Assembly (NCBI GenBank): GCA_001542995.1
Contig: LFLA01000007.1
Coordinates: 62,001 to 126,000, forward strand
DNA from: Nitrospina sp. LS_NOB
GTDB taxonomy: Bacteria; Nitrospinota; Nitrospinia; Nitrospinales; VA-1
Direction of reading: 5' to 3'
Length of the DNA: 64,000 nt
The notes under the pieces: generated by a model
Databases searched by the model: none
Told to the model about the DNA's origin: nothing
What the model saw: only the letters and a program-made list of their open reading frames with translations
Made by a program: the position numbers and the translations under genes
In this document: positions 5,119-40,268 of the stretch, piece after piece
Numbering within the stretch: the first letter of the stretch is position 1
How the letters are laid out: each line of letters starts with the position of its first letter

Positions 5119-5811
5119 ATGGCAGGATTCGATTTAACCCTCTTTGAGAAAGAACCCGTATTGGGCATCATACGTGGTGTTGATGGAGATTCCCTTTCTG
5201 GTGCACTGAAAGCAGCATACTCAGGGGGGCTTCGTTTTCTGGAAATCACCCTCAATACTCCTGGCGCGTTTCTTATTATCAAGAAGGCTGTCGAATTATT
5301 TCCGGATTTTTGCATAGGGGCTGGAACGGTTTTATCCGGTGCGTCTGCCCAGCAGGCTACTGATGCGGGAGCACAATTTATCGTGGCACCAAACTTGAAT
5401 GAGCAGGTCGCAGAATTTTGTATTAAGAACAATCTTGCCTATTTTCCTGGTGCTTTAACCCCTACAGAAATTGAAAAAGCATGGAGTTTTGGGGCAACAA
5501 TGGTAAAGGTCTTTCCCGCCTCCCAGATGGGGCCTGATTATTTTAAGCTTATAAAAGGACCCTTTGACCAGATCAAACTGATGGCTGTGGGGGGAATTAA
5601 CCCCAAAAATATCCCCGCCTATTTTTCTGCCGGGGCCTCAGCCGTGGCACTGGGAGGATCGATATTTTCCGTAAGACGGATGGCAGATCGGGAGTTTTCT
5701 GCGATTCAAAAAGAAATCGAAGAATTTATGTTTGCAGTGAACAAAATTTATTCTAATATAAGTGTATCGATGTTGCGAGTCACTCCAATTAAAGGGAGAA
5801 GAGGAGTATGA
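5119..5811 (+). CDS. eda: KDPG/KHG-type aldolase (bifunctional 2-keto-3-deoxy-6-phosphogluconate / 4-hydroxy-2-oxoglutarate aldolase family)
   Basis: The 230-aa TIM-barrel protein matches the class I KDPG/KHG aldolase family: GVDGDSLSGALKAAYSGGLRFLEITLNTPGA, then the FCIGAGTVLSG loop, YFPGALTPTEIEKAWSFGATMVKVFPASQMGP (with the Schiff-base lysine region MVKVFP) and MAVGGINPKNIPAYFSAGA. It cleaves 2-keto-3-deoxy-6-phosphogluconate or 4-hydroxy-2-oxoglutarate into pyruvate plus an aldehyde. No edd (6-phosphogluconate dehydratase) is adjacent, so the physiological substrate is uncertain. The downstream gene overlaps it by 4 bp. The symbol is by family. Confidence 0.8.
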   Translation: MAGFDLTLFEKEPVLGIIRGVDGDSLSGALKAAYSGGLRFLEITLNTPGAFLIIKKAVELFPDFCIGAGTVLSGASAQQATDAGAQFIVAPNLNEQVAEFCIKNNLAYFPGALTPTEIEKAWSFGATMVKVFPASQMGPDYFKLIKGPFDQIKLMAVGGINPKNIPAYFSAGASAVALGGSIFSVRRMADREFSAIQKEIEEFMFAVNKIYSNISVSMLRVTPIKGRRGV

Positions 5812-6074
5812 CCTTTGATTTCATGAAAGACTTTATGATGTTTGAAGATGAAGAGCGGTTTGCCGGTCTTTGCGAACAGTTAGAAGATGTGATTCGTGAA
5901 GTGGATGGCGGCGAAGGCAAGGTTTCTGAACTCGAAATCATGCAAGCGCTGGATTATGTTGGTTTCAACCTGTTTCGAGATAATTGGGAAGAATATAAAA
6001 AGATGGGTATGCTCAACCGTGATCAGAACCTTGCTCCACACTCTTCAGGCAAGGAAAAGCGGTATATTCATTAA
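5808..6074 (+). CDS. Small acidic protein of unknown function
   Basis: The 88-aa protein starts at an ATG that overlaps the stop of the aldolase gene (ATGA), so it is probably translationally coupled. It is acidic (FEDEERFAGLCEQLEDVIREVDGGEG) with an apparently helical centre; no catalytic motif is visible. It ends 4 bp inside the convergent propeller gene. It might be a regulatory subunit, but nothing in the sequence shows this. Confidence 0.55.
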   Translation: MTFDFMKDFMMFEDEERFAGLCEQLEDVIREVDGGEGKVSELEIMQALDYVGFNLFRDNWEEYKKMGMLNRDQNLAPHSSGKEKRYIH

Positions 6075-7606
6075 TCGGTCTTTTCCAATTCCCCCAAGTG
6101 TTGCATCAGTCGGTGCATTTTTTTGTCCAGAGTGTTGAGGTGCCGGCCAATTTCCTCGATTTCCTTTTTCTCCTGGTCCATATAAACCAGTCGACATTTT
6201 TCAATGTGTTCGGTGATATGTTCTATCATGTCATGGATTTCCTGACTCTCGGTTGAAAGCTCATCGGTGGTTTCTGTGAGTTCAATCACACGATCAGTCG
6301 CCATATCTTCCACTAGTTTTTTCCGGTTCTTAACCTTAGCCCGGTAATAGGCAATCAGGAAACCGGATATTGTCAGAAACACGATCCCCAGAGTCGCTAA
6401 ATCCACAAGCATATAAAAATAGGAACCGAAAAAGCGACCCGTATGAATTTCGGTCACGAGTTTCACAACATCCATTTTCATCTCATCGGGAGACAGTTGA
6501 TTGACCGCACCACTTAAATTTACATTTTCCCAGTTTTCACCGGCATCCTCAGAGAAATAAAGTCCCGATGAGGTGCCTGCATAAAGTAACTTTTCATTCA
6601 GACTGGTGATTTCGTTAATGGTAATAGCAACCGAGGTTCCCGAATCCTCGTTTATTTTTTGGGTGAAGGAAAAAATGTTCCTCCATGAGTCGCCACCATC
6701 ATTACTGGAGTAAAAACTCTCCCCACTTCCTACGTATAATTGTGACAGGTTGGAAGGGCTCACAAAAATTGCGTTTATGGGCGCCTTCTTAAAGGCAGAA
6801 TCGGCAACCCAGTTCCTGCCGCTATTGAAAGATTTGTACAGGCCGGTATCGGAGCCTGAATAGAGAAACTCTGGGTCGGTGTCTAAGGATATCAGCGCAT
6901 TCACGATAGATAGGGTATTTCCCCAAACGAGACTCCAATCACGCCCGCTGTTTTTGCTGCGAAGGGTGCTGCCTTCACCAGATGCATACAGGATGTTCAG
7001 ATTCGATGCTGAAAATTTTATGATCTGGACAGGTTGATCGGTGTATACCGGCTCCCAACTCTCTCCAGCATCCAAGGATTGGAAAATGCCCCCATCGGTT
7101 GCGGCAAATAGAATATCCGTGTTATCAGGATGCAGGGCAAGATCATTAATTTTTGTATTGGTCAAACCCGTTGTTTCATCGAACCAGTCACTCCAGGTGT
7201 CCCCGGCATCCTCAGACTTAAAGATGCCTCGCTTGGTTGCGGCATAAACGGTATTGGGTTCTTCCGGATTAATCATCAGGGAATTGATGTTTAGATCAAA
7301 CAATCCCTGATTGATTTGAAGCCAGGTTTTTCCTCCATCCAGGGACCGGTAAACACCAATATCTGTTCCCGCATATAGAATCTGGTCGGAGACTGTGGCG
7401 AGTGACTGGACGCGGCGTCGGGCGTTATAAACCTGAAAATACTTTTCCGGTAGGTATTTGCCGCTGATCTGGGCTTGTTCTATGCCAAATTCTTCCGGGT
7501 GCATTAAAAGAAAACCCGAAACAGAAAGAATAAGAATGAATACCGCAATCAGGAGACCGACCCATTTGTGGATGATGCGTGTATTTTTGAAAAAGCTAAT
7601 ATTCAA
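6071..7606 (-). CDS. PepSY-like membrane protein with BNR/sortilin-type beta-propeller and His/Cys-rich tail
   Basis: The 511-aa protein starts with RIIHKWVGLLIAVFILILSV, the first membrane helix typical of PepSY-associated TM proteins. About 330 residues of BNR/Vps10-like propeller repeats follow (GVYRSLDGGKTW, GIFKSEDAGDTW, GIFQSLDAGESW, GLYKSFNSGRNW, GLYFSEDAGENW). A second PepSY-like block, EIHTGRFFGSYFYML plus a TM helix, comes next. The last 76 residues (from 436) are a charged coiled-coil tail with H458, H463, H467, C471, H489, H498 and H503. The iron permease gene immediately upstream encodes a collinear tail. The propeller should be periplasmic and the tail cytoplasmic. It may act as an iron-reductase-like or sensing partner, but no haem site is obvious. 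Confidence 0.7.
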   Translation of the reverse strand: MNISFFKNTRIIHKWVGLLIAVFILILSVSGFLLMHPEEFGIEQAQISGKYLPEKYFQVYNARRRVQSLATVSDQILYAGTDIGVYRSLDGGKTWLQINQGLFDLNINSLMINPEEPNTVYAATKRGIFKSEDAGDTWSDWFDETTGLTNTKINDLALHPDNTDILFAATDGGIFQSLDAGESWEPVYTDQPVQIIKFSASNLNILYASGEGSTLRSKNSGRDWSLVWGNTLSIVNALISLDTDPEFLYSGSDTGLYKSFNSGRNWVADSAFKKAPINAIFVSPSNLSQLYVGSGESFYSSNDGGDSWRNIFSFTQKINEDSGTSVAITINEITSLNEKLLYAGTSSGLYFSEDAGENWENVNLSGAVNQLSPDEMKMDVVKLVTEIHTGRFFGSYFYMLVDLATLGIVFLTISGFLIAYYRAKVKNRKKLVEDMATDRVIELTETTDELSTESQEIHDMIEHITEHIEKCRLVYMDQEKKEIEEIGRHLNTLDKKMHRLMQHLGELEKTD

Positions 7607-7614
7607 GAGATCGC

Positions 7615-9771
7615 CTAATTTTGTTTGGGTTGGAAGGCCTGCTTAGCCAGCTTCTCATATTCATCCTGAAGCTGGTTCTCAACATATTTCACATGCCCGA
7701 ACAGTTCGTGGATTTTGATATCAATCTCCTTCAAATGGCCTGAGAGCTCCTGCAAATCCTGATCCGGAGTGTCCTTTAGAAATACTTCACAACGCTTGGC
7801 ATGATGAGATATATGTTCCACCAGATCGTGTACCTGGGTGATGTCATTTTGCAGTTGAGAGGTTTCCTCTTGCAATTGGGTAGCACTCAACTCAGCTTTA
7901 ATAATAAAAGTGTAAATAAGTGCGAAGACAAAAGCCCCAAATAACGCTGCCTGTCCTATGAATGTTTCCCAGGTGGGGTACATGCCGAGCCAGGAAATGC
8001 TGGGTAGAAAATTCGCAGCAGTCATGGGAACCTGTTCGCCCATTTGCAACTCGTGAAGTCCTTTTCCCATGAAGGTGAATGCCATGTAATACAAAAGAAC
8101 GCTGGTGAAACCAAAAAACCATTTAATGGGAATTCTCATACCCAAAGTATTGATCAAATAAAAGACTCCTGCCAAAACCACACAACCAGCGAAAAACCCG
8201 GGAATGATTCCTGCGGTCGCACCTTCAGCATACAAATAAAGCGCCTTGTAAAAAAGAACGGTTTCGAATCCTTCCCGGTAAACAGATATAAAGGCCACCG
8301 CACCCAGGGTAAAAGTGTTTCCCTTTGAAAGGGCGCCACGCATTTTTTTGTTGATGTATTCCTGCCACTTCTTGGTTTCAATTTTTGAAACCAACCAATA
8401 GCTGACCCAAAACAAGACCGCAACGGCAACTAACATGATCCAGCCTTCGAGAAGTTCCTGGTTGGCCATGCTCAGGTGAAGGATTTCTTGGATCACATAG
8501 GCTGTTGCAAAACTGGCAAGAATACCGATCACAACGCCAAAATGGATGGTTTTTATCCGCCCCTGATTGCGGGATTTCGTTAAAAACGCGATCAGCGCAG
8601 CGATGATGAGAATGGCCTCAAATCCTTCCCGAACGATGATGGAGAATGACTGAAAGAACATTCCCGTAAAACCAACCTCACTTTTGAGCAGTTCCAGACC
8701 TTTTGCCAGGTCCAGATTGATTTCCTTGTTAAGGGACTCCACATGCTCAAAAGGCGCGCTACGCTTAATCTCACCACGGTAGCGACTGAAGGCTGACTCC
8801 AGTTTCACACCCAAACTCTTGTCCTTGGTAATAAGGTTGGACTCAATTTTTTCATACGCAAGATACGCGTCAAAAGCCATTTCTGCCGCATTGTCTACCT
8901 GACCGGACTTATAAATAGCTAAACTCTTTTCGAGAAGCTCACGAACCTCGTTAACAACCTGTTCGGCCATGCCACTTGTGGAATCTCCAGATGACTCCAT
9001 TGCAGCCACTTGCAGATTTACCGGTGGCAGTTGCACAATGTTGTTGGAAAAAGTCCTGAGGTAATAGGTGACATTCCAAATCTCGGTTTCCGAAAGCACT
9101 CCAGCCCAGGCCATCATCGCAGTGTTGGCAATTCCGACATTAATCACCTCGAAATTGTCGTAAGCGGTGGTGTTTGTGTCTCCTGTCAGTTTTGGGTTGG
9201 ATAAAACGGCAGGGGAGGGATCAAACTGGCTAGCCATCGGGCCATCCCCATTACCCTTGAGGCCATGACAAACCGAGCAGTTATTTTCAAATATTTTTTT
9301 ACCGTTCCCCAGAGATACGGGGGTGATCGGTGTTTTATTGATTTCGATATTGAAAGTTGCCAGTAACTCTGAATTTATAATATTGACTTCCTTCCACATC
9401 ATTTGTGAATCCACTTTATCCTTGACCATAGCCATCATGTTGATGAGCCGTTTTTTAAGGTTCTCTGCTTTTTGTGGATCTGTGATTTCAGAAGCGATTC
9501 TTTCAAAACGTTCCATGGCCTGTTGCAAAAACATCTGGCTTTCTTCATATTCCGGCGGAATAACAATTTTTCCATCCACCACACCTTCTTCAAATTCCTT
9601 TGCAGCGATGTTCAGCATCATGACAATTTTTTTAGTTCTATCTATCGTCGCCTGATTGGTTGCTTGTGCATTAGTTGGAATCCAGATAATCTGACTTAAA
9701 AACAAAACAAATATCAGGATGATTTTAAAAAAGTCAGATTTTTGGATCATTTTGACTTTGGCGGATAGCAT
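7615..9771 (-). CDS. FTR1-family iron permease fused to cytochrome c
   Basis: The 718-aa protein has a signal/anchor ([18 protein letters not shown]), a helical periplasmic region, and a cytochrome c domain with CSVCH at about residue 165 and a possible axial Met in TAMMAW near 218. An FTR1 permease follows with both iron-binding REGFE motifs (VREGFEAIL near 381, YREGFETVL near 499) and seven or so TM helices. The C-terminal 93 residues are a soluble coiled coil with H648, H653, H656, H657, C661, H679, H688 and H693. FTR1 proteins import iron oxidised at the outer face; the fused cytochrome could take the electron. A Fur-box-like site lies upstream. The propeller gene follows after 8 bp, so they form an operon. 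Confidence 0.9.
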
Positions 9772-9836: not shown

Positions 9837-9855
9837 AATAATGAGAATTGTTATC
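9837..9855. promoter_or_regulatory. Fur box
   Basis: The 19 bases aataatgagaattgttatc match the classical E. coli Fur consensus (gataatgataatcattatc) at 15 positions, including the central inverted structure. The site lies 66 bp upstream of the start of the FTR1-cytochrome gene, the right place for repression when iron is plentiful. Confidence 0.75.
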
Positions 9856-10029: not shown

Positions 10030-10275
10030 CTAGAATTCTTTAAGCTTTTCCTCCCATTCCAAAATAAGCTCGCGAAATCGTTCCACATGCTTTTTTTCTT
10101 CCGACATCAGTTCCTGATACATCCTTCGAATCCCAATATTAGCGTCCGAATCTTCAGGGGTTTTATCAATAAGGGTCTGGTAATAATTGACGGAGTTTTC
10201 TTCACTGACAATGCCTTTGCGTAATACATCTAGTCGGGCCTGGACCGTTTCGGGAGTTTCGTTATCGGGTTCCAT
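10030..10275 (-). CDS. Half-ferritin / rubrerythrin-like two-helix protein
   Basis: The 81-aa protein has an EENSVNYYQTLID helix and a MYQELMSEEKKHVERFREL helix, placing E, Y and an ExxH pair as in one half of a ferritin-like di-iron site. Encapsulated ferritins and some rubrerythrin relatives are this short and build the iron site by dimerisation. No encapsulin gene or encapsulin-targeting tail is visible. It sits on the same strand upstream of the Fur site and permease, which fits an iron-handling role, though it could be transcribed separately. Oxidase activity is inferred only. Confidence 0.55.
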   Translation of the reverse strand: MEPDNETPETVQARLDVLRKGIVSEENSVNYYQTLIDKTPEDSDANIGIRRMYQELMSEEKKHVERFRELILEWEEKLKEF

Positions 10276-39458: not shown

Positions 39459-40268
39459 TCAATTGATCAATTCTGAAATCAACCTTCTTCCTTCAAGCTT
39501 TATTGTTTCAATTTTTAACTGGTCAATTTTTTGGCCTGTTTTCTGGGTGCTGATTTCCATTTCTTTGCCGTTCTCTTCCAGACTCAAAAGCTCCTTTATC
39601 AATCTCTCTCTTTTTGCATCAAAATCCCTGCGCCCGATTTTGCTTTTAATTTTTTCAATATATTTAGAATTTTTCAAAGAGACCTTTTGTTTTTTTGATA
39701 ATTCTTTTTCAAGACCAGCAAGTTCTTTTTGCCAGGATCTCTGAAGCAAAAATAATTTTTTCACTTCACCTCTTATGTATCGGTGGGTTTTAGTGGGGTG
39801 AAAGCAGAAGTATCCCGTGAAATGCCACTTGTCGTGATGAGGGACAATCCGGCCTTGAAAAATATCATTTTTTCTGAATACCAGTTGTGAGTCTTCCTCA
39901 TCAATTATGTGCTTTTCATCTTTGAACAAATCTAAAACCGTTACCGAGTTGTCGCGAACTTTTTTAACCTCAAAAAGTGCCTGAACATCATTGGAGATGT
40001 CTTTGCAAATTTCCAGACGGTCATGAGTCCATGTAGATTGGTTTTCCTCAATTATATTTTCCAGGATGGTGTTATGAGTCCCTGATACATAATTATCTAG
40101 CAGGTACCATTCCAGAAACAGAGCCATTCGGGTATCGTAGGACTTATCATCCTCGTAGATTTCTCCGGTCGTCTTCTGGTATTCCCCTTTCGCCTCCATG
40201 ATTTGTTCAGAGGGAATATGCTGGGCAATAAATTCGAAAAGTTGCTCTAAATTTTCCTTGAGCATCAA
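39459..40268 (-). CDS. Unknown protein encoded between carA and carB
   Basis: The 269-aa protein has an acidic, aromatic N-terminal half ([27 protein letters not shown]-like [35 protein letters not shown]) and a long C-terminal coiled coil ([20 protein letters not shown] ... LISELIN). There is no signal peptide or TM helix. Its ATG overlaps the carA stop by 4 bp, so it is translationally coupled to carA. A role in regulating carbamoyl-phosphate synthesis is possible but not shown. Confidence 0.65.

Follow-up and report, generated by a model that had tools for sequence, protein, structure and literature searches.

Two adjacent genes of a Nitrospina genome, one encoding an FTR1-type iron permease fused to a cytochrome c and the other a beta-propeller protein with a PepSY_TM unit, end in C-terminal tails which, by sequence comparison, are homologous helical hairpins. 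We put at roughly 50% the probability that this tail represents a cytoplasmic two-helix module not described before, probably metal-binding and with iron as the likeliest ligand, which operates in Fur-regulated redox iron uptake. The window, that is the whole stretch of 64,000 nucleotides analysed here, belongs to a genome of 2.65 Mb, the nearest named relatives of which, as found through the FTR1 gene, are Nitrospinota, the closest being an uncultured Nitrospina sp. at 88% identity. Both genes lie at the positions given in an earlier sequence-only reading of this DNA, and the propeller gene begins 8 bases past the stop codon of the FTR1 gene.

7615 to 9771, minus strand: FTR1 iron permease with an N-terminal periplasmic cytochrome c domain, 718 aa (Pfam).
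7618 to 7875, minus strand: C-terminal hairpin tail of the FTR1 protein, about residues 633-718, with H648, E652, H653, H657, C661, E675, H679, D684 and H688 (45 unique orthologues; AF2 helices).
6071 to 7606, minus strand: 511-aa protein with TTG start, in which a BNR/Ycf48-like beta-propeller separates the two helices of a PepSY_TM unit (Pfam; fold match).
6074 to 6298, minus strand: C-terminal hairpin tail of the propeller protein, about residues 437-511, with H458, E462, H463, H467, C471, E485, H489, D494 and H498 (41 unique orthologues; AF2 helices).
9837 to 9855, minus strand: Fur-box-like site GATAACAATTCTCATTATT, which lies upstream of FTR1 and matches the Fur consensus at 15/19 positions.

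The 718-aa protein is an FTR1-type iron permease by family membership, from which iron transport is predicted. It matched Pfam FTR1 (PF03239) with an E-value of 2.6e-25 and 89.7 bits against a curated cut-off of 25.3, and Cytochrome_CBB3 with an E-value of 3.7e-10, and its two RE-G-x-E motifs (REGFE at residues 381-385 and 499-503) were invariant or nearly so in alignments. Against the EfeU equivalog NCBIfam NF041756 it scored 106.8 bits, below the cut-off of 255. Its AF2 model has seven membrane helices; a fold search with this model gave no match at an E-value of 0.001 or better, small helical bundles being weakly matched. The protein thus resembles FTR1/EfeU permeases (PF03239) in the permease core, in the two motifs and in the seven modelled helices, but adds to them the N-terminal cytochrome c and the C-terminal His hairpin.

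The 511-aa protein scored 36.7 bits with PepSY_TM (PF03929; cut-off 28.8), and PepSY_TM_like_2 (29.6), PSII_BNR (46.7) and Sortilin-Vps10 (72.2) were likewise above their Pfam cut-offs; its AF2 model matched the folds of GH74 and Ycf48 propellers. H13, H36 and H388 were invariant in 31 orthologous sequences, and the protein has the conserved His near both membrane faces, putative heme ligands, that mark PepSY_TM proteins. In FoxB-type PepSY_TM reductases conserved His on both sides of the membrane ligate two hemes (PMC13038864), and the placement of H13, H36 and H388 corresponds to that of these heme-ligating residues. The likeness to FoxB and CrpH (PMC13038864) extends to the PepSY_TM helices and to the His near both faces; however, those reductases cross the membrane at least four times and have PepSY domains in the periplasm, whereas the propeller protein has two helices, a beta-propeller in place of the PepSY domains and an extra cytoplasmic hairpin. 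Its membership of the PepSY family is architectural, and by domain count it is no FoxB-type reductase.

The Fur-box-like site, scored on the reverse complement, was equalled in 0.4% of shuffles, and an equivalent site lies upstream in most orthologues. No FMN-binding gene was seen beside the window operon. Also upstream of the FTR1 gene (10030-10275, minus strand) is encoded an 81-aa ferritin-like protein, with a Pfam Rubrerythrin match barely above cut-off and a weak likeness to the EncB family of encapsulin cargo, far under the cut-off of that family; an encapsulin shell gene, its possible partner, was not found in this genome. Convergent with the FTR1-propeller operon is a small conserved gene of 88 aa (5808-6074, plus strand), which had no match in Pfam or NCBIfam and which stays beside the operon in orthologous loci, propeller-less ones included. 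Elsewhere in the window, a 269-aa coiled-coil-like gene with no assigned function (39459-40268, minus strand) lies between carA and carB in a pyrimidine cluster.

The gapless alignment of the two tails claimed by the sequence-only reading holds over about 70 residues, with the tails following the last membrane helix in both proteins and with all seven His/Cys identities present (FTR1 H648, H653, H657, C661, H679, H688 and H693 opposite propeller-protein H458, H463, H467, C471, H489, H498 and H503). Numbered from the first common His as 0, these positions become H0, H5, H9, C13, H31, H40 and H45. The gapless BLOSUM62 score of the pair was 129, as against maxima of 39 in 3,000 composition shuffles and 54 in 3,000 heptad-preserving shuffles, and the shuffles reached at most four and five, respectively, of the seven identities in a single register. 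The same reading had proposed that shuffled coiled-coil sequences scoring equally would undo the claim, and as no shuffle attained either the score or the seven identities, the likeness is not one of generic coiled-coil composition; an origin by chance or by coiled-coil bias was ruled out on these grounds. A translated search of the window's own genome with the FTR1 protein as query matched the tail of the partner at an E-value of about 8e-10. Profiles of the FTR1 tail and the propeller tail scored 60.3 against each other (column-shuffled controls 11.2±2.0), and the FTR1-tail profile scored 35-58 against the remaining carriers. Profile searches of Pfam and PDB that started from the tail returned coiled-coil noise only and did not place it in the known metal-binding helical families, and no earlier description of it was found in Pfam, PDB or the literature searched.

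Conservation was counted over complete unique tails, 45 from FTR1 and 41 from propeller proteins. H0, H5, C13 and H40 were 85-100% conserved in these, with E4 and D36 close behind, D36 being replaced by His alone. H9 and H31 were invariant in all 91 tails when the small-PepSY and class-outgroup FTR1 types described below were included. H45 is His in 35 of the 45 FTR1 tails and in 2 of the 41 propeller tails; the seven-residue signature previously proposed was therefore cut to the six residues that are nearly invariant throughout the order, the last His being dropped as unconserved. The small-PepSY and class-outgroup tails keep H0, E4, H5, H9, H31, D36 and H40 and are without Cys13 and E27, two residues that are usually either both there or both missing. 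Because these outgroup tails have the core without the latter pair, H0-E4-H5-H9...H31-D36-H40 is probably the older part of the tail, to which Cys13 was added later. H0, E4 and H40 were lost jointly in one clade of propeller tails (L127, L135, L139). In these genomes the FTR1 tail retains all three, which amounts to a natural site-specific knock-out.

In the AF2 models the FTR1 tail forms helices at 601-665 and 671-712 (pLDDT about 70) and the propeller-protein tail helices at 447-474 and 477-510 (pLDDT about 50-63), confidence across the tails thus being low to moderate. Helical-wheel offsets are near-identical in both: one flank has H0 and H40, the opposite flank H5, H9, C13 and H31. In the FTR1 model, where the turn is centred at 668, H648 is level with H688, E652 with D684, H657 with H679, and C661 with E675; in the propeller-protein model, which is of lower confidence, the turn lies about two residues earlier, and the register of that tail is therefore unsure. 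Several of the level pairs in the FTR1 model also covary (C13/E27 and H0/H40), as do H0 and E4, but the substitutions come from few clades and the Fisher values are not independent, so that the covariation counts as support and not as proof. From the register, two putative sites can be drawn: H0/H40 and E4/D36 would make up the first, and H9/H31, together with H5, Cys13 and E27, the second, on the opposite flank. By family topology and charge pattern both tails are predicted to be cytoplasmic, since in FTR1 seven permease helices follow a periplasmic cytochrome and in the propeller protein the second helix is followed by KxKxRKK, in keeping with the positive-inside rule.

The tail was searched for in 77 Nitrospinota genomes and in loci retrieved with FTR1 as query, the relatives compared being mostly metagenome assemblies. 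Across the 77 genomes it occurs in one or two copies per genome, exclusively on proteins of the FTR1, propeller-PepSY or small-PepSY types. One genome from outside the order (G056) carries it on an FTR1 that lacks cytochrome c. There the gene is clustered with one for P19 iron transport (PF10634, 164.8 bits), a Fur gene is close by, and no PepSY_TM gene could be found in the genome. In four genomes of one family (G072, G073, G075, G076) it is borne by a two-helix protein of 210-230 aa encoded directly after an FMN_bind gene and scoring 26.3 bits with PepSY_TM, barely below cut-off, and no FTR1 gene was found in these four. With its FMN-binding gene immediately ahead of a two-helix PepSY protein, this arrangement recalls the flavinylation-linked PepSY-like clusters (PMC8238504), with the difference that here the PepSY protein bears the tail. 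These iron- or redox-linked carriers count in favour of an iron-uptake module. A distant form of the tail, with H5, H9 and a shifted Cys, was present once per genome on FTR1 of Dadabacteria and of genomes labelled Deltaproteobacteria (35.4 against the FTR1-tail profile; controls 10.9±1.9), and no propeller neighbour was seen at the loci of this type that were read. At ten of them (L151, L153, L156-L159, L162, L165, L171, L179) the FTR1-cytochrome tails contain a strongly conserved HIKGHI(I/L)EW(K/R)(K/R)C, and queC- and queE-like genes take the place of a propeller beside FTR1.

Among the named Nitrospinota loci, 33 have both the tail and the propeller (two of them truncated by a contig end), six bear the tail but have no intact propeller beside it, and six have neither; a propeller stands next to none of the six tail-less FTR1 genes (Fisher p 1e-4, with ancestry not accounted for). 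On the FTR1 tree this distribution calls for three losses of the propeller with the tail kept and three to four events of joint absence. One of the six loci with the tail but no propeller belongs to a closed MAG (G016; L096/L097) in which the propeller gene is broken into two parts lying about 1 Mb from each other, the N-terminal one still adjoining FTR1, either through an inversion breakpoint or through misassembly. In one of the genomes without the propeller (L011), a degraded remnant of that protein's tail can still be seen. In a propeller-less clade (L108, L112, L117) the FTR1 tail shows, for example, 38 synonymous against 5 non-synonymous changes over 68 codons (pN 0.03), purifying selection as strict as that on the permease core; the L109/L105 tail pair, which has a two-residue insertion, was left out of the dN/dS counts. 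As the tail is still under purifying selection after loss of the partner, FTR1 would use it by itself, while the propeller protein seems always to occur with a tailed FTR1.

The tails had been proposed to form a paired module. Much of that proposal stands: the tails are homologous and order-wide, their conservation fits that of metal ligands, the operon has a Fur-like box and tail-less FTR1 genes lack a propeller. Obligatory pairing does not. Tails were not found on both partners in every tail-bearing genome, and strict pairing was ruled out by the distribution, by the three propeller losses and by selection on the FTR1 tail in the absence of the partner. In a weaker form, both tails would make a hetero four-helix bundle joining permease and reductase around a common His/Cys metal site. 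An identical type of hairpin on two adjacent genes is what this docking would produce, as are the lack of a propeller beside tail-less FTR1 and the joint absence of tail and propeller in three to four lineages; yet the FTR1 tail has been retained under constraint through three independent propeller losses, lineages with a single carrier exist in both directions, and one clade has given up H0, E4 and H40 in its propeller tails while keeping them in FTR1. We regard docking as unlikely.

Quite unlikely, too, is a heme-binding hairpin, in which H9/H31 or H0/H40 would ligate heme b and pass cytosolic electrons to the PepSY membrane heme and to iron leaving FTR1. The ligation of hemes by His on both membrane sides in PepSY_TM reductases (FoxB, PMC13038864), the cytochrome c borne by the permease and the pairing of a tail protein with an FMN-binding protein in one family are consistent with it, but a tailed FTR1 occurs in a genome where no PepSY_TM protein could be detected, E4, D36 and Cys13 suit a metal site at least equally well, and Pfam and PDB profile searches revealed no likeness to heme proteins. 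A purely structural, coiled-coil oligomerisation tail with structural His would account for the amphipathic hairpin and for scans of Pfam and PDB yielding coiled-coil families alone. It is, however, hard to reconcile with a likeness that exceeds heptad-preserving shuffles, and with conservation that is highest at His, Glu/Asp and Cys on the flanks and lower in the hydrophobic core, and we consider it improbable.

For the preferred reading of a metal-binding module, the FTR1 tail would stand directly after helix 7, the point at which iron exits the permease, and may receive or gate the exiting iron alone or as a homodimer, iron as the ligand and a gating or chaperone role being what we infer. 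The same hairpin is also attached to a PepSY-type, reductase-like partner, which has a periplasmic beta-propeller and, in its two helices, the His pattern of heme-ligating PepSY_TM reductases, and the tails may also associate where both proteins occur. A cytoplasmic C-terminal Cys/His stretch is likewise found on an iron importer in E. coli FeoB (PMC10647171), but that stretch is short, unrelated in sequence and without a His-rich helical hairpin. A more far-reaching version, in which the tail is an undescribed iron- or heme-binding hairpin at the cytoplasmic mouth through which the propeller-PepSY heme reductase and the FTR1-cytochrome associate and so link redox in the periplasm to the release of iron within the cells of marine Nitrospinota, is speculative and, as a whole, doubtful.

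FTR1 permeases are widespread, and the phylum Nitrospinota includes nitrite oxidizers that are important in the sea. A conserved His hairpin on both FTR1 and a relative of PepSY-type reductases would offer an experimental handle on the cytoplasmic receipt of iron and on the way in which FTR1 proteins of bacteria are linked to redox partners, and a two-helix, propeller-containing PepSY_TM architecture is thereby defined in Nitrospinota.
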